Shown: piece after piece, positions 3,948 through 59,310 of the stretch
How the letters are laid out: each line of letters begins with the position of its first letter
How positions within the stretch are numbered: the first letter of the stretch is position 1
From: Brevibacterium rongguiense
GTDB taxonomy: Bacteria; Actinomycetota; Actinomycetes; Actinomycetales; Brevibacteriaceae
DNA length: 64,000 nt
Reading direction: 5' to 3'
Assembly (NCBI RefSeq): GCF_009857845.1
Contig: NZ_WWEQ01000007.1
Span: forward strand, 1-64,000
Position numbers and translations under genes: made by a program
The notes under the pieces: model-generated
The model's database searches: none
Told to the model about the DNA's origin: nothing
Seen by the model: only the letters and a program-made list of their open reading frames with translations

Positions 3948-5113
3948 GCGCGCAGGACCATCCGCTGCCGGGCGCCGAGACGGAGTTTGCGATCCGCTCG
4001 CGCCCCGCCGCCCGAGACTGGCGGAGCGACGAACCGGCCCACGTCCTGGACTTCCACCGCTCGATTCCGGGCTACGCGCCCACCCGCCTCGTCGAACTGC
4101 CCGCGCTGGCCCGGGAACTGGGTGCTGCCCGCGTGTGGGTCAAGGAGGAGGCGCACCGGTACGGGCTGCCGGCATTCAAGATGCTCGGGGCCGCGCACGC
4201 GGTTGCCCGTGCGCTCTCGGCGCGCCTGGGGGTCGGGGAGAGCGCCCTGCCGCTGAGCGAGATCGCAGCCCGGCTCCCGGAGACGGGGGTGCGCGAGCTC
4301 GTGGCGGCCACGGACGGCAACCACGGCCGGGCGGTGGCGCGCACCGGCGCGCTCGTCGGACTGCCCGCGCGCATCTTCCTGCCCGGGGGAGTCTCCGAGG
4401 CCGCCGTCGATGGCATCCGCGCGGAGGACGCCGAGATCGTGCCGCTGGGCGGCTCCTACGATGCCGCGGTCGCCCGCGCCGCCGAGGAGAGCCGCGGCAG
4501 TGGGTCGCTGCTCATCCAGGACACGTCCTGGGAGGGCTATGAGGAGGTGCCCGCCTGGATCGTGGAGGGCTACGGCTCGGTCCTCGAGGAGGCCGCGGCG
4601 CAGCTGCGCGAAGCCGGAGCGCCCGCGCCCACGCTCGTGACCGCGCCCACCGGTGTGGGCGCATTCGCCGAGGCCGTCGTCCGCTTCACCCGCTCCGGGG
4701 GGTTCGCCTCGGGCACCGCGGGCGCCTCGGACGCCGCTCCGCATATCCTCGCCGTCGAACCGTCCGCCGCGCCCAGCCTGTTCGCCTCGCTGCTGGCCGG
4801 TCAGCCCGTCACGGTGCAGACGGGGAACACGATCATGGCCGGGCTCAACTGCGGGACGGTGGCGGCGGCATCGTGGCCGGCGCTGCGCGACGGCGTGGAC
4901 CTCAGCGCGGTCGTCCCGGACGCCGCGGTGACGCGGGCCGTCCGCGACCTCGAGGCGCACGGTGTGGACTCCGGCCCGTGCGGCGCGGCATCGCTGGCGG
5001 GTGTGCGCCTGCTGCGGGAGCGCGGCATGCTGGCCGACGGTGCGAACATCCTGCTCATCAACACGGAGGGAAGGGCCGCGAACCCACTGCCCGCGGCAGG
5101 CATCTCCGTTTAG
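3944..5113 (+). CDS. dpaL: Diaminopropionate ammonia-lyase-like PLP enzyme
   Basis: A 389-residue fold-type II PLP enzyme. Lys79 in AFKMLGAAHA is the likely Schiff-base lysine, ATDGNHGRAVA binds the cofactor phosphate/substrate, and GPCGAAS near the C-terminus matches DpaL-type lyases. The family converts 2,3-diaminopropionate to pyruvate and two ammonia. The start is the ATG overlapping the upstream stop (ATGA). In Escherichia coli a comparable pairing exists, ygeX (DpaL) next to the M20 gene ygeY, so coupling with the M20 hydrolase supports the call. Threonine dehydratase-like activity is the alternative. Confidence 0.82.
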   Translation: MSAQDHPLPGAETEFAIRSRPAARDWRSDEPAHVLDFHRSIPGYAPTRLVELPALARELGAARVWVKEEAHRYGLPAFKMLGAAHAVARALSARLGVGESALPLSEIAARLPETGVRELVAATDGNHGRAVARTGALVGLPARIFLPGGVSEAAVDGIRAEDAEIVPLGGSYDAAVARAAEESRGSGSLLIQDTSWEGYEEVPAWIVEGYGSVLEEAAAQLREAGAPAPTLVTAPTGVGAFAEAVVRFTRSGGFASGTAGASDAAPHILAVEPSAAPSLFASLLAGQPVTVQTGNTIMAGLNCGTVAAASWPALRDGVDLSAVVPDAAVTRAVRDLEAHGVDSGPCGAASLAGVRLLRERGMLADGANILLINTEGRAANPLPAAGISV

Positions 5114-5132
5114 TTAACATAATGTATATTAT
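5110..5132. promoter_or_regulatory. AT-rich dyad after dpaL
   Basis: A short, strikingly A/T-rich island in very GC-rich DNA starts at the dpaL stop codon. It contains GTTAAC and the dyad ATAAT-GTAT-ATTAT (5119-5132). It could be a regulator-binding site or -10 region for a transcript running toward ferritin. No partner protein is identifiable. Confidence 0.35.
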
Positions 5133-5419
5133 CGGCTAAGCGGACAGCATCACCTGGTCCGTCCCATGAGCGGCGCCGAGCACCGCATCGCACCACCGAT
5201 GCACGCGCGCAAACTGCGCCTCCCGTCTGATGCACGCGTCCCCTGCCTGCGCACCGGCGGCGATCCGCGCTCGGCGTCGGCGCTTTGCAGACTTGCTCGG
5301 ATTCGCTCGCTCGTCTCGGGGCACGCTCGGTCGCCCCGGGCTACTCACCGTCCGATTCGCACTCACCGGTGCGCCCCTCGCGTGACTTCCGGCCCCCGGT
5401 GCGACTCGGCCCCAGTCTT
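5133..5419. other. Gene-less spacer between dpaL and ferritin
   Basis: I see no gene. Open frames here lack actinobacterial codon bias, ribosome binding sites and recognisable protein features. No tRNA-like fold was found. Confidence 0.4.
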
Positions 5420-5472
5420 GACTCGTTCCAATCCCAGGCCAGCCTCACCATGCATGCGAACTGGAACGAGTC
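5420..5472. promoter_or_regulatory. Inverted repeat upstream of ferritin
   Basis: GACTCGTTCCA (5420-5430) and TGGAACGAGTC (5462-5472) are perfect 11-bp inverted copies separated by 31 bp, ending 72 bp before the ferritin start. TTGACT at 5418 could be a -35 overlapping the left arm. It does not resemble the IdeR/DtxR consensus. It may be two half-sites of one operator. Confidence 0.45.
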
Positions 5473-5544
5473 CAATTAGCATGGGTGGCGACCGCCGGGT
5501 CCGCGCACGGCGCGCGGCCCACCCTCTTCCGAAAGGACTCCGAC

Positions 5545-6060
5545 ATGCGTCTGTCCGACACCATGGCCAAGGCACTGAGCGACCAGGTCACCCTCGAGCT
5601 GACCGCCTCGATGGTCTACCTCCAGCTCGCCATCGAGCTCGAGGACCAGGACCTCAACGGAATGGGCGCGTGGATGCGCGCGCAGTCCGAAGAGGAGCTC
5701 GTCCACGCCCACAAGTTCATCGCGCACTGCATCGATCGCGACTCGGCGCCGCAGATCGGCACGATCTCCGTGTCCGACCTGTCCGGCAAGAAGCCGATCG
5801 ACCTCTTCCGCGCTGCCCTCGCGCACGAGCAGAAGGTCTCGGAGTCTATCCGCGAGCTCTACCGGCTCGCGCAGGCGGAGACGGATCTCGACGTCATTCC
5901 GCTGCTCAACTGGTTCGTCGACGAGCAGGTCGAGGAGGAGTCGACGGTCGACGAGATCATCTCGCACCTCGCGCTCGTGGGCGAGGACGGCTCGGGCATC
6001 CTGCGCATCGATTCCGAGCTGGGCTCGCGCACTCCGGAGATCGCCGCCGACAGCGAGTGA
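5545..6060 (+). CDS. ftn: Ferritin (non-haem iron storage)
   Basis: A 171-residue four-helix bundle. Ferroxidase-centre ligands are consistent with the Glu of LTLELTASMVYLQ, Glu-Glu-(x)-His in EEELVHAHKF, and later EQVEEE. The protein oxidises Fe(II) and stores it as a mineral in a 24-mer; the length is typical for bacterial Ftn. The ATG is chosen because GAAAGGA lies 7 nt upstream. Earlier in-frame starts would add an unrelated leader. A perfect 11-bp dyad lies in the upstream region. It is transcribed alone and ends at a strong hairpin shared with the convergent RlpA gene. Confidence 0.93.
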   Translation: MRLSDTMAKALSDQVTLELTASMVYLQLAIELEDQDLNGMGAWMRAQSEEELVHAHKFIAHCIDRDSAPQIGTISVSDLSGKKPIDLFRAALAHEQKVSESIRELYRLAQAETDLDVIPLLNWFVDEQVEEESTVDEIISHLALVGEDGSGILRIDSELGSRTPEIAADSE

Positions 6061-12320: not shown

Positions 12321-13310
12321 TCAGCCGAGGGCCGCGCTCACCCCGTCGACCCACACCTCGCGCACCGTGGGCAGCCGCTCCGGGTCGCCGAGGTCCGGCA
12401 GCCCGGGAGTGCCGGAGCGCGGGTCCGTGCTCCAGGCCGCCACGCGGTCATCGGAGACCTGCACGACCAGCCGATCAGCGCGCCAGCGCACCGCGGTGGC
12501 CGCGGCACCCGGTGCGAGCACACCGGCCTCGAAGCGGCCGGCGGCGCGGTGGGCGAACCGCGTCGCGCAGTTGAACGCCGCGCGTCCGGAGATCCCCCCG
12601 GCGCGGTCCCAGACGGCCGCGCGGATGCTGCGCCACGGGGCGGCTGGATCGAGTGCGAAGCTCACCTGGGCACCGGCCGCCAGGAGTCCTGCCAGCGGCT
12701 GCTCGGCGCTCGGATCGACCGTCAGCGCGATGCCGGCCGCACCCAGCCGCTCGCACAGCGCCTCCGGCACGCGCCGGCCGAAGCGCAGCCGCCAGCCGGA
12801 GCGCTGCGCGTGTGCGACGGCTCCCGCATCGTTGAGCAGCGCTGCGAGCGCGGCCTCGTCGGCCTCCGATTCCACGAGCACGCAGAGCGCGCCCGGCGGC
12901 CGCTGGCCGTCCGCGAGCTGCGCCGCGCTGCGCGCGGCGGGGCCCTCCTGCGCATCGAGGGCGTAGCCGAGGACCGCCAGCCGCCCGGCTCGCGCCTCGA
13001 ACGCCGCGAGGGCTGCGGCCGTACCGATCGCGTGCACACCGGCGATCCCGGCGGCCACGAGGGCCTCCGGCTCCGGGGCGGAGACGCGCAGGTCGAGACC
13101 CGCATCGACGAACGCGGGGGCGACGAAATCGCCCTCCAGGTCCTGCACGGGCGCGCCCAGCGTGCCCGCCGCCTCGTCGGAGCCCACCCACGACACGATG
13201 GGCCCCTCGAAGGCGATCGCGGTGGCGAAGGGATCGGCGCTCGAATAGACATCGCCGCCGGCGAGCACCGTGACGGCGGGATCCTGCTCAGTCTTCTCCG
13301 TGGGAATCAC
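12321..13310 (-). CDS. Amidohydrolase-like protein lacking the HxH metal motif
   Basis: A 329-residue protein with the N- and C-terminal beta-sandwich features of metal amidohydrolases (VTVLAGGDVYSSADP near the start; AAGRFEAGVLAPGAAATAVRW near the end). The strand normally reading VDAHxH is AFVDAGLDLRV here, so the first two metal-binding His are missing. No clear second metal His pair is visible in the Ala/Leu-rich middle. It is therefore probably not a canonical hydrolase. The GTG at 13310 is preferred; a longer form from 13367 is possible. It is upstream of ppm1 on the same strand and divergent from the nuclease-fusion gene. Confidence 0.65.
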   Translation of the reverse strand: MIPTEKTEQDPAVTVLAGGDVYSSADPFATAIAFEGPIVSWVGSDEAAGTLGAPVQDLEGDFVAPAFVDAGLDLRVSAPEPEALVAAGIAGVHAIGTAAALAAFEARAGRLAVLGYALDAQEGPAARSAAQLADGQRPPGALCVLVESEADEAALAALLNDAGAVAHAQRSGWRLRFGRRVPEALCERLGAAGIALTVDPSAEQPLAGLLAAGAQVSFALDPAAPWRSIRAAVWDRAGGISGRAAFNCATRFAHRAAGRFEAGVLAPGAAATAVRWRADRLVVQVSDDRVAAWSTDPRSGTPGLPDLGDPERLPTVREVWVDGVSAALG

Positions 13311-13462
13311 GTCGCCCAGTATCCCACTGGTATCCCACCGGAGCGTCCGCGCCCCGCGATAGGGCACGGGGGTGAGTGCGAAGCGGGCGCAGCGGAGCCG
13401 GACGGGCGCGCCGCCCGCGCCGGATCGGGGCGCTGCTGCCCGGTGCCGCGTCCGTGCCGCGG

Positions 13463-13477: not shown

Positions 13478-15616
13478 GTGAGAGAAGCGCTGCTCGTCCT
13501 CGACACGCCGGCCCTGTACTACCGGGCCTTCTACGCCCTGCCCACCTCGCTGCGCGATGCCGCCGGCACGCCGGTCAACGCGGTGCGCGGGCTGCTCGAC
13601 ACGGTCGCCGCGCTGTGCGCCGAACTCCCCCGCCCGCGGGTCATCGCCGCCTTCGACGCAGACTGGCGCCCGGCGTTCCGCACGGCCCTCGTGCCGGAGT
13701 ACAAGGCCCAGCGCGTGCGCGATGAGGCCGCCGGCACGGAGACCCCCGAGGAGCTGGCGCCCCAGCTGCCGATCATCCGGCGCGCGCTCACCGCGGCCGG
13801 CATCCCCATCGCTGAGGTGCCGGGCACCGAGGCCGACGACGTCATCGCCTCCCTCGCGGCGCAGGTCCCCGGCCCCGTGACCATCGTCTCCCCCGACCGC
13901 GACCTGTTGGCCCTGCTCGACGGTGAGCGCGTGGTGCTGCGCCGGCCCCGCCCCAAGGGCGAGTGGGAGGTCACCGCCGCGGCCGATCTGCCCGCGCTCT
14001 ACGGGGTTGCGGGCCCGGAGCTCTACCGGGAGCTCGCCGCGCTGCGCGGGGACCCCTCCGACGGACTCGCCGGTGCCCCCGGGATCGGGGAGAAGACCGC
14101 CGCGCGCCTGCTCGCGGCCCACGGCAGTCTGGACGGGGTCTTCGCCGCCGCGCGCGCGGGCTCGGCCGACGGCGGCCTGACGCCTAAGCGCCGGGCCGCC
14201 CTGCTCGAGTCCGAGGAGGCGGTGCGCGCGAATGCGGCGGTCATGGCCTGCCTGGAGGACCTGCCCGTGGGCGACTGGCTCGCCGCCGCCGACCACGTGC
14301 CCGAGCGCCTGGATCGCGCGGCGCTCGCGGAGCTGGGCCGCGCCCACAGTGTCGTTGCCGCCGCGGACCGGCTCAGCGCTGCCCTGGGCGGTTGGTCCGC
14401 GGCCGGCCGGGAGCACGGTGCGCGCGGCGGCGCAGCCGCGGGCGCCGGCGCCTCATCCGACGTCGAAGGGCCTGGGTCGGGAGCGGCCCCCTCCCCCGCC
14501 GCTGGGCTTCCGGCTGCACCTGAGGACGGAGTAGCAGGCGGCGCTCCCGGTGGGCCTGGGCACGCAACCGCCGACGGATCACCGGGCAGCGCCGCTGCGG
14601 CCGGCACAGTGGGCCGCGGCAAGACGGACACCGCCGCTGCGGACGGCACGACGGATAGCGCCGCTGCCGGCTCAGCGGGCACGGGGACCGTGGGTGTGCC
14701 CGCGGCCGGCACGACGGATGGCGCCGCTGCCGGTTCGGCGGGCACGGAAACCGGGGGCGTGTCTGCGGCAAGCACTGCGGAGGTCGACGCTGCCAGCCCT
14801 GTGGGCGCGGGGACCGCGGGCGAGCCTGCGCCCGGCACTGCGGAGGCCGGCGCTGCGGATATCGGCACTGCGGGCACCGGGAGAGGCGGCGCAGCTGCGA
14901 ACGAGGCTGAGGACGGGACCGAACCCGGCTGGCCCGCGGGGCCCGTGTGGGGCTTCGACCTCGAGACGACGGGTGTCGATCCCCGCACCGCGCGCATCGT
15001 CACGGCCGCCCTCGTCGAGTTCGACCGGGGCGCCAGGCGCGAGGCCTACACGTGGCTGGCCGATCCCGGGGTGGAGATCCCGGCGGCCGCCGCCGCGGTG
15101 CACGGGATCAGCACCGAACGCGCCCGCACCGAGGGCATGGACCGGCGGGCCGTGGTCGAGCAGCTGTGCGCGGCCATCGCCGATATCACTGCCGCGGGCG
15201 GGGTGCTCGCCGGCCACAACATCGCCTACGACCTCACCGTGCTCCAGGCCGAATGCGAGCGCCTGGGCATCAGCCCCGCCGTCCGCGAGGTCCATCCGCC
15301 CATCGTCGACACGCTCGTGCTCGACCGGCGCGCGGAGAAGTACCGGCGCGGGCCCCGCATCCTGCAGGCACTCGCCGAGCGCTGGGGGGTCGAGCTCGTC
15401 GACGCCCACTCGGCCGATGCCGATGCGGCCGCCGCGGCGGCCATCGCCCTGGCCATCGGCGCGGCGAGCGCGGAGATCGGCGGGCTCAGCCCGGCGGCGG
15501 TCCACGCAGCCCAGATCGCCTGGAAGGCCGAGCAGGCCGCCGATCTCGAGGCCTATCTGCGCGCCAAGCGCGACCCGCAGGCGCGCGTGAGCCGCGCATG
15601 GCCGTTCGAGGAGTGA
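13478..15616 (+). CDS. Fused 5'-3' exonuclease (FEN/PolA N-terminal type) and DnaQ-like DEDDh 3'-5' exonuclease
   Basis: A 712-residue single frame with two nuclease domains. Residues 1 to about 290 match the PolA-type 5'-3' exonuclease/flap endonuclease: LDTPALYYRAFYALP, AFDADWRPAFR..EYKAQR, the acidic EADDVIA, SPDRDLLALL and the helix-hairpin GIGEKTAARLL. Residues about 305-488 are an Ala/Gly/Thr/Pro-rich linker that includes a 63-bp tandem repeat. Residues about 490-665 form a DEDDh exonuclease: FDLETTG (Asp494, Glu496), GHNIAYDL near 580-587 and HSADAD near 648. The GTG start lies 9 nt after TATAGG. These nucleases are normally separate proteins. A role in Okazaki-fragment or repair processing is inferred. 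Confidence 0.85.
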   Translation: MREALLVLDTPALYYRAFYALPTSLRDAAGTPVNAVRGLLDTVAALCAELPRPRVIAAFDADWRPAFRTALVPEYKAQRVRDEAAGTETPEELAPQLPIIRRALTAAGIPIAEVPGTEADDVIASLAAQVPGPVTIVSPDRDLLALLDGERVVLRRPRPKGEWEVTAAADLPALYGVAGPELYRELAALRGDPSDGLAGAPGIGEKTAARLLAAHGSLDGVFAAARAGSADGGLTPKRRAALLESEEAVRANAAVMACLEDLPVGDWLAAADHVPERLDRAALAELGRAHSVVAAADRLSAALGGWSAAGREHGARGGAAAGAGASSDVEGPGSGAAPSPAAGLPAAPEDGVAGGAPGGPGHATADGSPGSAAAAGTVGRGKTDTAAADGTTDSAAAGSAGTGTVGVPAAGTTDGAAAGSAGTETGGVSAASTAEVDAASPVGAGTAGEPAPGTAEAGAADIGTAGTGRGGAAANEAEDGTEPGWPAGPVWGFDLETTGVDPRTARIVTAALVEFDRGARREAYTWLADPGVEIPAAAAAVHGISTERARTEGMDRRAVVEQLCAAIADITAAGGVLAGHNIAYDLTVLQAECERLGISPAVREVHPPIVDTLVLDRRAEKYRRGPRILQALAERWGVELVDAHSADADAAAAAAIALAIGAASAEIGGLSPAAVHAAQIAWKAEQAADLEAYLRAKRDPQARVSRAWPFEE
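14645..14896. repeat. 63-bp tandem repeat in the nuclease linker
   Basis: Four successive units begin at 14645, 14708, 14771 and 14834, each exactly 63 bp apart and starting GGCACGACGGAT or a variant. They encode 21-residue Ala/Gly/Thr-rich units. The first two are nearly identical, the later ones more diverged. A further partial copy starts at 14603. The frame is conserved. Confidence 0.8.
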
Positions 15617-15686
15617 CCACCGGGTCCCGGGCAGCGAGCACCGGACCGGCCGCAGCGAGCGCGCGCCTTCGAGCGGGCTGACCGCG

Positions 15687-15728
15687 GAGCCCGGGGCGCC
15701 GTCGTAGACTGGGCGGCGCCCCGGGCTC
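15687..15728. terminator. Perfect 15-bp hairpin with a -10 element in its loop
   Basis: GAGCCCGGGGCGCCG (15687-15701) and CGGCGCCCCGGGCTC (15714-15728) enclose a 12-nt loop that contains TAGACT (15705-15710). The stem can terminate transcripts from the nuclease gene. The loop motif could serve as the -10 of secA2, whose RNA would then start inside the right arm and not form the stem. Confidence 0.55.
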
Positions 15729-15787
15729 GCACGCCGTGCGTGCGGCGCGCGGCTTCGCCACGCAGCATCGACAGTGAGGACGGACGC

Positions 15788-18049
15788 ATGGGCATCTTCG
15801 CCCGCCTGCTCAACCGACCCGGCGCGCAGGCCGCCGGCCGCACCGGCTGGCTCGAGCGCTCGCGCAGCGCCATCGACGAGAAGTCGCAGGACTACGCGGC
15901 GCTGGCCGACGAGGACATCGCCGCCACCGCCGCGGAGATCTTCACGACCGGCCAGCGGCGCGAGCAGCAGATCGCCTTCGCCGCGCTCGTGCGGGAGGCC
16001 GCCGAGCGCGCGCTGGGCGAGCGCCCCTTCGACTCCCAGCTCACCGGGCTCGTCGGCCTCCTCGACGGCCACGTCGTCCAGATGCTCACCGGCGAGGGCA
16101 AGACCCTCGTGGGCGCCATGGCCGCCGCCGGCTACGCCCTGCAGGGCCGCCGCGTCCACGTGGTCAGCGTGAATGACTACCTCGCGGTGCGCGACCGCGA
16201 TTGGATGGCGCCGCTGTTCGAGCTGCTCGGCGTCGAATCGGCCGCCGTCAGCGAGTCCGACGACGAGGCCGCGCGGCAGTCCGCCTACGCCACCGAGGTC
16301 GTCTACGCCTCCGTGCAGGAGGTGGGCTTCGACGTGCTGCGCGACCGCTTCGCCGCCGATGACGCGCAGCTGCGCGTGGGCGAGAGGGACGTCGTGATCG
16401 TCGACGAGGCGGACTCCGTGCTCATCGACGAGGCGCGCGTGCCCCTCGTGCTGGCCGGCTCCACCAGCGTCGAGGAGGCCGATGCGAAGATCGCTGCGCT
16501 CGTCGCCGACCTCGACCCGAACGCCGACTACGAGGTCAGCCAGGACCGCAAGGCCGTCTCGCTCACCGACGCGGGGGCCGATCGGGTCGAGCGCGAGCTG
16601 GACGTCGACCTCTACGGCGCGGATGCGGACGTGCTCGCCGCCGTCAACCTCGCGCTCTACGCCCGCGCGCTCATCAAGCGCGATGTCGACTACCTCGTGG
16701 TGGACGGCGTCATCAAGCTCATCTCCGACTCCCGCGGCCGGGTGGCAGACCTCCAGCGCTGGCCCGACGGCCTGCAGGCGGCCGTCGAGGCCAAGGAGCA
16801 CCTGACGGCCAGCGAATCGGGTGAGATCCTCGACCAGATGACCGTCGAGGAGCTCATCCACGGCTACCGGACGGTCTGCGGGATGACGGGCACCGCGCTG
16901 GCGGTGGGCGATGATCTGCGCGAGTTCTACGAGCTCGAGATCCTCCCCATCGAGCCCAACGAGGCGGTGGTGCGCGTCGACGAGCCCGACCGCCTGTACA
17001 CCTATCAGGAGTCCAAGGAGCGCGCGATCGTCGAGGAGGTCGCCGCCCAGCACGCCTCCGGGCGCCCGATCCTCATCGGCACGCGCTCGGTGTCCGAATC
17101 GGAGAGTTTGGCCGAGCGGCTGCGCGAGCGCGGCATCCGCGCCGAGGTGCTCAACGCCAAGGACGACACCCACGAGGCCGGGATCATCGCGGCCGCCGGC
17201 GCCGCAGGCGCGGTCACCGTGTCGACCCAGATGGCCGGCCGCGGCACGGACATCCGCCTGGGCGAGGGCGCCGCGGAGGCCGGCGGGCTCCTCGTCATCG
17301 GCGCGGGCCGCTACCAGTCCTCCCGGCTCGATGACCAGCTGCGCGGCCGGGCAGGGCGCCAGGGCGACCCGGGCACCTCGGTCTTCTTCACCTCGCTCGA
17401 AGACGAGCTCATGACCCGCGTGCCGGAGGCCCAGCGCTTCATCGAGGAGGGCGACGAGCACGGGCGGATCGCCGCGCGCCGCGCGGCCCAGCTCGTCGAG
17501 CACGCGCAGCGCATGGCGGAGGGCGAGAACACCGCGGTCCACCGCGACACGTGGCGGTTCAACGAGCTCATGGCCAAGCAGCGCGAGCTCGTGCTGCGCC
17601 GCCGCGACGCCATCCGGCGGGAGTCCACCGGGGTCGACGAGCTGCGGGCCGAGGCCGCCGAGGCGGTGGCCGCTGCCGATGAGAAGCTGGGCGCCGAGGT
17701 CGTCGACGCCGCCCTGCGCGAGGTGCTGCTGTTCGAGCTCGACTCCCGCTGGGTGGACCACCTCGCCTACCTCAACGACCTGCGCGAGGGCATCCACCTG
17801 CGCACCCTGGCGAAGGAGAAGCCCCACGAGGCGTTCAACGCGGAGTCCATCCGCGCCTTCGAGTCGTTCTGGCCCGATGTGCTGGCTGACTCCGCGGAGG
17901 TCGTGCGGGAGGCGGAGTTCACCCCGACGGGCATCGACCTGCGGGCCCACGGCCTCAAGCGGCCGTCGTCGACGTGGACCTACCTGTCGACCGAGTCGAC
18001 GTTCGGCTCCGATATCGAGGCCGTCGTCAAGCGGGTTGCCAAGCGCTGA
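15788..18049 (+). CDS. secA2: Accessory Sec translocase ATPase SecA2
   Basis: A 753-residue SecA-family motor, shorter than housekeeping SecA (about 900) and without the C-terminal zinc-binding SecB-docking tail. Walker A TGEGKT is at 101-106. VDEADSVLIDEARVPL is the DEAD box region, MAGRGTDIRLG and LRGRAGRQGDPG are helicase motifs V/VI, and a helical scaffold with WVDHLAYLNDLREGI follows. SecA2 exports a small set of proteins through SecYEG, often without classical signals. The ATG is preceded by GAGGA. It is convergent with helY. No SecY2 is nearby, consistent with actinobacterial SecA2-only systems. Confidence 0.94.
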   Translation: MGIFARLLNRPGAQAAGRTGWLERSRSAIDEKSQDYAALADEDIAATAAEIFTTGQRREQQIAFAALVREAAERALGERPFDSQLTGLVGLLDGHVVQMLTGEGKTLVGAMAAAGYALQGRRVHVVSVNDYLAVRDRDWMAPLFELLGVESAAVSESDDEAARQSAYATEVVYASVQEVGFDVLRDRFAADDAQLRVGERDVVIVDEADSVLIDEARVPLVLAGSTSVEEADAKIAALVADLDPNADYEVSQDRKAVSLTDAGADRVERELDVDLYGADADVLAAVNLALYARALIKRDVDYLVVDGVIKLISDSRGRVADLQRWPDGLQAAVEAKEHLTASESGEILDQMTVEELIHGYRTVCGMTGTALAVGDDLREFYELEILPIEPNEAVVRVDEPDRLYTYQESKERAIVEEVAAQHASGRPILIGTRSVSESESLAERLRERGIRAEVLNAKDDTHEAGIIAAAGAAGAVTVSTQMAGRGTDIRLGEGAAEAGGLLVIGAGRYQSSRLDDQLRGRAGRQGDPGTSVFFTSLEDELMTRVPEAQRFIEEGDEHGRIAARRAAQLVEHAQRMAEGENTAVHRDTWRFNELMAKQRELVLRRRDAIRRESTGVDELRAEAAEAVAAADEKLGAEVVDAALREVLLFELDSRWVDHLAYLNDLREGIHLRTLAKEKPHEAFNAESIRAFESFWPDVLADSAEVVREAEFTPTGIDLRAHGLKRPSSTWTYLSTESTFGSDIEAVVKRVAKR

Positions 18050-55656: not shown

Positions 55657-58600
55657 CTACCGGAAGTTGCGCGAGGCCACGGGCAGTTCGACGTCGAGCG
55701 GCACGAGCTTGTGCGCGTAGAGGCTCACGACCTCGCCGGCGCGCTGGAGCAGGCCCGTGACGACGAGCGTGGCGCGGGTGAGCGAGATGGGAGCGAAGCG
55801 CTTCATGAGCCCCGGGCTGCACACGACGTTGAGCATCCCGAACTCGTCTTCGATGTTCATGAACGTGATCCCCGAGGCGGTCCCGGGCCGCTGACGGTGC
55901 GTGATGATGCCGGCCACGGTGATCCGTTGGCCGTCGGACGCCGCGCGGGCGTCCGCGGTCGAGGCGTACCCCCGGGCCCGCAGCGCCCCGCGCAGCTGCT
56001 GTGTGGGGTACCCGTCGACCGTGAGGCCCGTGGCGAAGAGCTCCGCGAGTGTGACGTCGAAGGCGCCCATGAGCGGCAGGGCGGGCGCCGTGTGGACGGG
56101 CGAGGTGCCCGGCAGGGTCGCCGGCCCGGCCCCGGAGAGCGAGCCGGCGAGCCACAGGGCCTGCCGGCGGTCGAGCCCGAAGCAGTCGAATGCGCCCGCC
56201 GTGGCCAGGGCCTCGAGCACGCGCACCTCGACCCCGGTGCGCTGGGCCACGTCCTCGACGCTTCCGTAGGCGCCGTGGGCGCGCTCGGCGACGAGCGCCT
56301 CGGCGGCATCGCCCACGCCCTTGACCGCGCGCAGGCCGATCCGGATGGCGAACCCGCCCGTGGAGTCCGGGTCCGGTTCGAGGTCCGCCTCCTCCTGGGA
56401 GCGGGCGATGTCGACGGGCCGGATGCCCACGCCGTGGCGGCGGGCGTCCGCGATGAGGGACTGCGGCGAGTAGAAGCCCATGGGCTGGCTGCGCAGCAGG
56501 CCGGCCGTGAACGCCGCGGGGTGGTGGCGCTTGAACCAGGCGGAGTCGTAGACGAGGTTGGCGAAGCTGATCGCGTGGCTCTCCGGGAAGCCGTAGTTGG
56601 CGAACGCCGCGATCTTGCCGAAGATGACCTCGGCGAGCTCGGGTCCGATCCCCCGCTGGGCGCAGCCCGCGTCGAAGCGCTCGCGCAGCGCCTTCATGCG
56701 CGCCTGGGAGCGCCGCGAGCCCATGGCCCGGCGCAGCTCGTCGGCGTCCGCCCCGGAGAATCCCGCCACGTCGATCGCCATCTGCATGAGCTGCTCCTGG
56801 AACAGCGGCACGCCCAGCGTCTTGCCGAGCGAGGACTCGAGCGCGGGGTGGAGGAAGTCCACGGGCTCCTCGCCCTGGCGCCGGCGGATGTAGGGGTGGA
56901 CGGAGCCGCCCTGGATGGGGCCGGGGCGGATGAGCGCCACCTGCACCGCGAGGTCGTAGAAGGTGCGCGGGCGCAGGCGCGGCAGTGTGGCCAGCTGGGC
57001 GCGGGACTCCACCTGGAAGACGCCCACCGCATCGGCCGCGCACAGCATGTCGTAGACCTCCGGGTCCTCCTGCGGGATGGCGGGCCGCTCGATGCGCTCT
57101 CCGGTGTGCGCGGCGACGAGGTCGACCATCTCGTGCAGCGCGCCCAGCATCCCCAGGCCCAGCAGGTCGAACTTCACGAGGTTCATGGCCGCGCAGTCGT
57201 CCTTGTCCCACTGGACGACCGTGCGGTCCTCCATCGTGGCGGGCTCGATGGGCACCACCTCGCCGATGGGCCGGTCCGCGAGGATCATCCCGCCGGAGTG
57301 GATGCCCAGGTGGCGCGGGGTGCCCAGGAGCTCCCCGGCGAGGTCGAGGACGGGGGCGGGGACGTGGGTCTCCGCGGGCTCCGGCAGGCTCGACCAGCGC
57401 GCGAGGCCCTTGGAGAACGCGTCCTGCTGGCCGGGGTCGAAGCCGAGGGCGCCCGCGGCGTCGCGCACGGAGGACTTGGCGCGGTAGGTGATGACGTTGG
57501 CCACCTGGGCGGCGCGGTCGCGGCCGTAGTGGGCGTAGGTGTACTGGATGACCTCCTCGCGGCGGGCGGACTCGATGTCGATGTCGATGTCCGGATAGCC
57601 CTCCCGCTCCGGGGAGAGGAAGCGGTCGAAGAGCAGCCCGAAGCGCACGGCGTCGACCGCGGTGATCCCCAGGACGTAGCAGACGGCGGAGTTCGCGGCC
57701 GAGCCGCGGCCCTGGCAGAAGATGTCGTTGTCGTGGCAGAAGCGGGCGATGTCCCAGACGATGAGGAAGTAGCCGGCGAAGCCCATCGCCTCGATCGTGG
57801 CGAGCTCCCGGTCGAGCAGCGCCCAGGCGTCCGGGCGTCCGGCGCGGTCGCCGTAGCGGCGCAGGGCCCCGGCGGCGACGAGCTCGCGCAGCCGCTCCAT
57901 CTCATCCGCCCCCTCCGGCACGGGTGCCCGGGGCAGGCCCGCGCGGGCGGCCGTGAGCTCGAACGCGCACTCGGCGGCGAGGCGGGCGGCCGCGGCGACG
58001 GGCTCCGGGCCGAAGCGCTGGACCATCTCCTCCGGCGTGTGGATGCGCCCGGCCGCGGCGGGCGGCAGCCAGCCCGCGAGCTGTTCGAGCGAGCGGTGGG
58101 AGCGGATCGCCGCGCGCAGCTGGGCGCCGCGGAACTGGGCGTGCCCGGCGTAGTGGACGGCATTCGTCGCCACGGCGGGCAGGTCGCAGCGGGCCGCGAG
58201 CTCGCGCAGGTGGGCGATGCGCTCGTCATCGCGCGGGTCGCCGGTGCGGGTGAGCTCGACGGCGACCCGGTCTGTCCCGAAGAGGTCCGTGAGCCGCCGC
58301 AGCGCGCCCAGCCCGCCGTCCGGATCGCCCAGGCGGGGCAGGAGGGGTCCCTTGCGGCAGCCGGTGAGGATGAGCCAGTCGGCGCGCTGGGCAGCGAGGG
58401 ATTCGAGGTCGAAGACCGGGCGGTTCTTCTCCCCGCGCTGATTGCCCGCGGTGATCGCGGCGGACAGGGCGCGGTAGCCCTCCACACTGCGGGCGAGCAC
58501 GAGGAGGTGCTCGGCGGCCGGGTCCACCTGGCCGGGGATCCGCTCGGCCAGCCCCAGGGAGAGCTCCGCCCCGTAGACGGTGGGCAGGCCGCGCGCGGCC

Positions 58601-59310
58601 GCGCGCTGGGCGAAGCGGACGGCGCCGTAGAGGCCGTTGTGGTCTGTGAGCGCGAGCCCGGACAGCCCCGCATCGGCCGCCGCATCGACGAGGTCCTCCG
58701 GTTCCGAGGCGCCGTCGAGGAAGCTGAAGTCCGAGTGCGCGTGCAGCTCCGCGTAGGCGATCGCGGGGGCCGCGTGCCGCGGGGTGGGCACCGGGGCACT
58801 GCCGGCGCCCGTGCTCTCGGGGGCCGCCGGGGCCGGCCGCGCACCGGGGCCGACAGAGCGCCCGGGCCCATCGGAGCCCCTCGGCCCCACGGAGACCGGC
58901 GGGGGCACCGCGGCAGGAGCGGCGCGGTGCGCGGGGGCCGTGCGGGCGGCGGTGGTCGGCTCGTCCTCGTAGCGCCGGGGCGCGCTCTTGCGGTCGGCGA
59001 TGGGTGCGGGCTGCCCGGTGTTGGACTGCTGCCGGGAATTGGGCTGCTGCCGGGAGTCGGACTGCTGCGGGGGCGGGCTGGGCCGAGCGGCCGGGGCATT
59101 GGCCTGCCCGCCGGCGCGCACCTCGGCCCCGGGATGCGCCTGTCCCCCGGTGGGATCGGCCTCTCCCCCGGTGGAATCGGCCTCGGACCCTGCCCCGGGC
59201 TCGGTCCTGCGCCGGGCGCCGTTGTGCCGCGTGCCCGCGGGCGCGGGCTTGGCCGAGAGCCGCCGCTCGAGCTCCGACCACGTGGTGCGCGGGTTGAAGA
59301 AGCGGCTCAT
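55657..59310 (-). CDS. dnaE2: Error-prone DNA polymerase III alpha subunit DnaE2 (ImuC)
   Basis: A 1217-residue C-family polymerase for damage-induced translesion synthesis. Residues 1-24 (FFNPRTTWSELERRLS) match the family start; residues about 25-182 are a Pro/Gly/Gln-rich low-complexity insertion; the PHP domain starts near 186 (ELHAHSDFSFLDG). The palm holds YPDIDIDIE, followed by fingers, an HhH domain and a C-terminal OB fold (ITVAGIITHRQRPGTASGITFMNIED). The ATG at 59310 overlaps the imuB stop by 4 nt. Last gene of imuA'-imuB-dnaE2, under a LexA box. Confidence 0.95.
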   Translation of the reverse strand: MSRFFNPRTTWSELERRLSAKPAPAGTRHNGARRRTEPGAGSEADSTGGEADPTGGQAHPGAEVRAGGQANAPAARPSPPPQQSDSRQQPNSRQQSNTGQPAPIADRKSAPRRYEDEPTTAARTAPAHRAAPAAVPPPVSVGPRGSDGPGRSVGPGARPAPAAPESTGAGSAPVPTPRHAAPAIAYAELHAHSDFSFLDGASEPEDLVDAAADAGLSGLALTDHNGLYGAVRFAQRAAARGLPTVYGAELSLGLAERIPGQVDPAAEHLLVLARSVEGYRALSAAITAGNQRGEKNRPVFDLESLAAQRADWLILTGCRKGPLLPRLGDPDGGLGALRRLTDLFGTDRVAVELTRTGDPRDDERIAHLRELAARCDLPAVATNAVHYAGHAQFRGAQLRAAIRSHRSLEQLAGWLPPAAAGRIHTPEEMVQRFGPEPVAAAARLAAECAFELTAARAGLPRAPVPEGADEMERLRELVAAGALRRYGDRAGRPDAWALLDRELATIEAMGFAGYFLIVWDIARFCHDNDIFCQGRGSAANSAVCYVLGITAVDAVRFGLLFDRFLSPEREGYPDIDIDIESARREEVIQYTYAHYGRDRAAQVANVITYRAKSSVRDAAGALGFDPGQQDAFSKGLARWSSLPEPAETHVPAPVLDLAGELLGTPRHLGIHSGGMILADRPIGEVVPIEPATMEDRTVVQWDKDDCAAMNLVKFDLLGLGMLGALHEMVDLVAAHTGERIERPAIPQEDPEVYDMLCAADAVGVFQVESRAQLATLPRLRPRTFYDLAVQVALIRPGPIQGGSVHPYIRRRQGEEPVDFLHPALESSLGKTLGVPLFQEQLMQMAIDVAGFSGADADELRRAMGSRRSQARMKALRERFDAGCAQRGIGPELAEVIFGKIAAFANYGFPESHAISFANLVYDSAWFKRHHPAAFTAGLLRSQPMGFYSPQSLIADARRHGVGIRPVDIARSQEEADLEPDPDSTGGFAIRIGLRAVKGVGDAAEALVAERAHGAYGSVEDVAQRTGVEVRVLEALATAGAFDCFGLDRRQALWLAGSLSGAGPATLPGTSPVHTAPALPLMGAFDVTLAELFATGLTVDGYPTQQLRGALRARGYASTADARAASDGQRITVAGIITHRQRPGTASGITFMNIEDEFGMLNVVCSPGLMKRFAPISLTRATLVVTGLLQRAGEVVSLYAHKLVPLDVELPVASRNFR

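Follow-up and report, generated by a model that had tools for sequence, protein, structure and literature searches.

In the genus Brevibacterium, fenA is fused to a dnaQ gene of the PRK07942 type, and this fusion is genuine and of long standing. Known enzymes are arranged here in a new way; the enzyme class itself is not new. We found no earlier report of a fenA-dnaQ fusion in the open-licence literature. We give an even chance to the idea that the product is a bifunctional, polymerase-free nuclease that trims both polarities at nicks or flaps. The sequence that we analyzed (the window) is a stretch of 64,000 nucleotides from Brevibacterium rongguiense, and the fused gene within it is laid out as follows.

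13478 to 15616, plus strand: fused gene fenA-dnaQ (712 amino acids, GTG start, TGA stop)
13478 to 14386, plus strand: FenA-type 5'-3' exonuclease / flap endonuclease domain (residues 1-303; PF02739, PF01367, PDB 6c33)
14387 to 14929, plus strand: disordered Ala/Gly-rich linker (residues 304-484; pLDDT below 50 at 310-473)
14637 to 14856, plus strand: 63-nt (21-codon) in-frame tandem repeat within the linker (3.5 copies; Tandem Repeats Finder, score 230)
14930 to 15613, plus strand: DEDDh 3'-5' exonuclease domain, subfamily PRK07942 (residues 485-712; NF005927, Pfam RNase_T)

The coding frame is open throughout from 13478 to 15613, and the stop codon (TGA) occupies 15614-15616. The initial annotation had described a single 712-codon frame encoding two nucleases, and both points hold: 13478-15616 is uninterrupted, and 5_3_exonuc_N, 5_3_exonuc, and RNase_T are all matched in one chain of 712 amino acids. 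In the protein, the FenA-type domain (about 1-303) comes first, then the linker (about 304-484) and the DEDDh exonuclease (about 485-712). The GTG start agrees with the GTG starts that our script called in 54 of the 55 fused homologues; for the 55th, the script called an adjacent non-start codon. The sole other match to the fused protein in the B. rongguiense genome is polA. (On the minus strand, a 1092-amino-acid open frame at 14672-17950 lies opposite the fusion and secA2. The very high GC content most likely accounts for it, rather than a coding function.)

The N-terminal half closely resembles stand-alone FenA. The Pfam domains 5_3_exonuc_N (residues 5-155, E = 1.4e-38) and 5_3_exonuc (residues 180-265, E = 1.2e-14) both exceed their curated cut-offs. 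Among solved structures, the closest to this half is Mycobacterium smegmatis FenA, which matches residues 5-303 (E about 1e-48), and the AlphaFold model of this half has the FenA fold (TM-score by target of 0.79-0.81 from Foldseek). The fold, the length, and all of the active-site acids of M. smegmatis FenA (PDB 6c33-6c36) match those of the N-terminal domain, with 37% identity across about 328 columns of the structure alignment. The conserved active-site carboxylates of the FenA family, which form two metal sites, are present: the acids D9, D60, E118, D120, D121, D140, D142, D192, and D195 are invariant in 55/55 fusions, and all nine are also kept in the sister genera, in the outgroups, and in G008, a Brevibacterium whose fenA is not fused. 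M. smegmatis FenA differs in being a single domain without a 3'-5' exonuclease, which the window protein has. Because of this C-terminal DEDDh domain, the protein departs from the single-domain form of the FenA family, so we consider the FEN half to be a FenA-family member within a new architecture. From its sequence, we predict that this half has 5'-3' exonuclease or 5' flap endonuclease activity. The stand-alone FenA of Bacillus subtilis works on Okazaki-like RNA-DNA substrates (PMC10191290). In M. smegmatis, deleting fenA left NucS mismatch repair unaffected (PMC11551767), which counts against taking any in vivo role of FenA itself as settled.

The C-terminal half belongs to PRK07942, a DEDDh subfamily of the DnaQ superfamily. 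Pfam's RNase_T matches residues 493-656 (E = 1.4e-17), and the NCBIfam model for PRK07942 (NF005927) matches residues 484-711 (E = 5e-73) with 245.6 bits, compared to a curated cut-off of 186. The match covers nearly the whole model, including the C-terminal W-P motif. The DEDDh catalytic residues (D494, E496, D585, H644, and D649) are invariant in 55/55 fusions and in the unfused relatives, and this half probably has 3'-5' exonuclease activity. PRK07942 is an actinobacterial subfamily that is annotated as DNA polymerase III subunit epsilon; for the DEDDh half, that name reflects homology only. In other families, PRK07942 members are separate frames, mostly of about 230-300 amino acids, and lie apart from fenA. 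The B. rongguiense genome encodes four RNase_T domains: the fused one, a PRK07883 protein, oligoribonuclease, and a DEDDh protein that weakly matches PRK06195 and has a BRCT-like C-terminus. The fused domain is therefore the genome's sole member of PRK07942. DinG (an exonuclease-helicase) and PRK07883 (a DEDD domain with a UvrC-like GIY-YIG part) likewise join a DEDDh domain to another nucleic-acid enzyme, but their partners differ from the FEN domain of the fusion, and the genome's PRK07883 member stands separately.

In the AlphaFold model, most of the two domains is predicted with high confidence (pLDDT above 90), while residues 310-473 are below 50. The pTM is 0.50, so the relative placement of the domains is undefined, and there is no defined contact between them. 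Foldseek matched the two domains separately, to FenA (6c33) and to DnaQ-type exonucleases. The proposal that two nucleases of opposite polarity, with intact motifs, sit on a flexible tether is thus supported by the invariant residues and by the predicted disorder. As assembled, the linker of B. rongguiense has 183 amino acids, versus 14-70 in the other 54 fusions; this span of 14-183 suggests that no particular geometry is needed.

The fusion is found across the genus. The name of the genus agrees with an encapsulin of its member G047, which matches PDB 7bcv far better than any other entry (486 versus 352 bits); 7BCV comes from Brevibacterium linens (PMC11676171). Of 57 Brevibacterium genomes, 55 encode a single-frame fusion, and all 57 encode the FEN part. 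In one of the exceptions (G012), the end of a contig cuts the gene, and the DnaQ part lies at the margin of a different contig. The other (G008) encodes a 305-amino-acid FenA that is followed directly by secA2:

5091 to 6008, minus strand, of locus L039 (G008:C23:192000-204000): G008 fenA without the DnaQ half

We did not find PRK07942 elsewhere in the G008 genome. In a tree of FEN domains, G008 groups with two fused species (support of 0.905), which implies that the DnaQ half was lost secondarily. A caveat is that the deep nodes of this tree are weak.

Related genera suggest how the fusion arose. In three other genera of the family (G057-G059), fenA and dnaQ are adjacent on the same strand in different frames, and they overlap by 1-4 nucleotides (ATGA in G058 and G059, TGATG in G057). 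This start-to-stop overlap means that fenA and dnaQ are translationally adjacent even when unfused. The flanking genes in these genera are also those of Brevibacterium (an amidohydrolase-like gene, secA2, and a helY-like helicase). In the window, the immediate neighbors are:

12321 to 13367, minus strand: divergent amidohydrolase-like gene, the conserved upstream neighbor (beside fenA in L036-L039)
15740 to 18049, plus strand: secA2-like gene, the conserved downstream neighbor (it follows fenA/dnaQ in Brevibacterium and the three sister genera)

In genomes from the same order but outside the family, either the two genes are widely separated or lie on different contigs, or there is no stand-alone fenA. 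We found no similar fusion elsewhere in the order; in genomes with long DnaQ frames, fenA was distant, on another contig, or absent. No similar fusion was seen among the matches listed for 89 class-level genomes, and a contig scan with a single fused sequence gave just three distant loci and no fused relatives. In the other actinobacterial families that we sampled, no genome in which both genes could be located has fenA and dnaQ linked, which agrees with the initial annotation's statement that actinobacteria normally encode the two halves separately. It had also suggested a lineage-specific DNA repair enzyme; what stands of this is that the arrangement is lineage-specific, because the two genes are separate in other actinobacterial families. 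The simplest history is that fenA and dnaQ were brought together in an ancestor of the family and their frames were fused in the ancestor of the genus. The final step was probably a small indel at the overlap.

Could the fusion be an artefact? The linker is repetitive and the assembly is in 179 contigs, which might raise the suspicion of a false join. But the join is common to 54 other genomes, several of which are assembled as single contigs, and their linkers are mostly non-repetitive. Fusion in those 54 genomes also rules out a chance open frame. With one-frame homologues in 55 genomes, we consider the probability of an assembly or sequencing artefact to be negligible. Two doubts raised at the outset, a stop or frameshift in the linker and separate translation from a shared internal start, were not borne out either: no linker in the 55 fused genomes has a stop or frameshift, and we found no conserved internal start. 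In 13 of the 55 fusions, the stretch from the FEN domain to DnaQ motif I has no in-frame ATG, GTG, or TTG, and in the whole set, just one candidate internal start has a Shine-Dalgarno-like sequence, so separate initiation of the DnaQ half is unlikely. (In the window, the last candidate start is a GTG that precedes D494 by about four codons and falls within the exonuclease fold's first strand.) Cleavage of the fused protein after translation is possible.

Both domains are under purifying selection and the linker is not. By simple pairwise counts of the Nei-Gojobori type, the median dN/dS is 0.19 for FEN, 0.25 for DnaQ, and 0.71 for the linker, and among the closest pairs the domains are at about 0.05-0.15. 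The median pairwise identity among the fusions is 59% for FEN and 53% for DnaQ.

The other replication enzymes of B. rongguiense bear on what the fusion might do. Classical DNA polymerase I has a 5' nuclease, a DEDDy 3'-5' exonuclease, and a polymerase, so there too a single chain combines a 5' nuclease of the FEN family with a 3'-5' exonuclease of the DnaQ superfamily. The fusion differs in having no polymerase domain, a DEDDh rather than a DEDDy exonuclease, a disordered linker, and an independent origin. It has no match to DNA_pol_A and is not a family A polymerase; the true polA is elsewhere in the genome. That Pol I (L002, G000:C22) matches the FEN and polymerase domains, and a domain search gave no match to the 3'-5' exonuclease domain (the fragment extends into the polymerase domain). 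According to a survey, inactivation of the Pol I exonuclease is common in Actinobacteria (PMC12926913). As for the replicative polymerase, by our reading the nine-residue motif of the PHP proofreader is complete in DnaE1. This implies that DnaQ is not needed as the main replicative proofreader, and if a separate proofreader is not obligatory, that fits the loss of the DnaQ half in G008.

On the bifunctional reading, fenA and dnaQ would originally have been neighbors with overlapping start and stop, and joining them throughout the genus would have made one nuclease of two activities. At nicks and gaps, the FEN half would remove flaps and ends on the 5' side, RNA-primed ends among them, and the tethered DEDDh half would trim mismatched or displaced nucleotides from the facing 3' end. 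The fusion would thus supply the 5' and 3' nuclease pair of a classical Pol I without the polymerase, and a host Pol I with no recognisable 3'-5' exonuclease would be the setting for its 3' trimming. That the two halves act on the same nick or flap is a weaker suggestion, and the coordinated Okazaki-fragment or gap processing that the initial annotation had put forward would likewise be no more than a possibility. A more specific version is that the tether makes a dedicated editor, which handles both sides of one lagging-strand or repair nick and makes up in trans for Pol I's loss of 3' editing in this lineage; we hold this quite tentatively. That G008 kept FenA after losing DnaQ shows that the partnership is not obligatory and that any cooperation is dispensable.

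Perhaps the fusion brought no gain beyond equal expression, which comes close to the cooperation model in likelihood. It is a serious possibility, if not a probable one, that an indel at the ATGA junction was nearly neutral and that the enzymes keep separate jobs, with a fixed 1:1 expression as the only benefit. The overlapping start and stop in the sister genera make the fusion a one-step event, the length and sequence of the linker are unconstrained, and one species dropped the DnaQ half. A neutral join sits less well with the survival of the single frame across 55 genomes, among which the pairwise identity of the FEN halves is as low as 46%, or with the finding of no reversion to two genes. 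It seems improbable that the DnaQ half is mainly an epsilon-like proofreading subunit for DnaE1 or Pol I, carried to the lagging strand by the FEN half. Besides the annotation of PRK07942 as pol III epsilon, this idea draws on a report of one actinobacterial DnaQ that acts jointly with the PHP proofreader (PMC12926913). But the PHP motif of DnaE1 reads as intact, G008 has lost the DnaQ half, and the window protein has no canonical clamp-binding motif, nor is one conserved across the homologue set.

The fusion and the overlapping pair in the sister genera are a hint of the Rosetta-stone type that FenA and the poorly understood DnaQ of PRK07942 share a pathway. Species with fused, overlapping, or unlinked genes, along with one species that is naturally without the DnaQ half, make a simple set-up for testing the roles of actinobacterial DnaQ and stand-alone FEN proteins.

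Finally, the linker of B. rongguiense looks like a neutral expansion. Ala and Gly make up 53% of it (95/178 residues), and its GC content by codon position is 0.80/0.81/0.74, versus 0.82/0.55/0.94 for the FEN part in the same species; it is open despite the absence of the normal codon-position pattern. The linkers of other species (in L040 and L055) contain short tandem repeats of their own, AGDALAGQ-like and GAPSTS-like. These are independent occurrences, so growth of the linker by repeat duplication seems to be recurrent. A second PHP-domain protein, which looks like an error-prone polymerase of the DnaE2 type, is also encoded in the window (58246-58749, minus strand). As read in locus L082, its N-terminal region resembles a long low-complexity stretch of Pro, Ala, and Gly, which, together with the long linker, suggests a general growth of disordered segments in this species.
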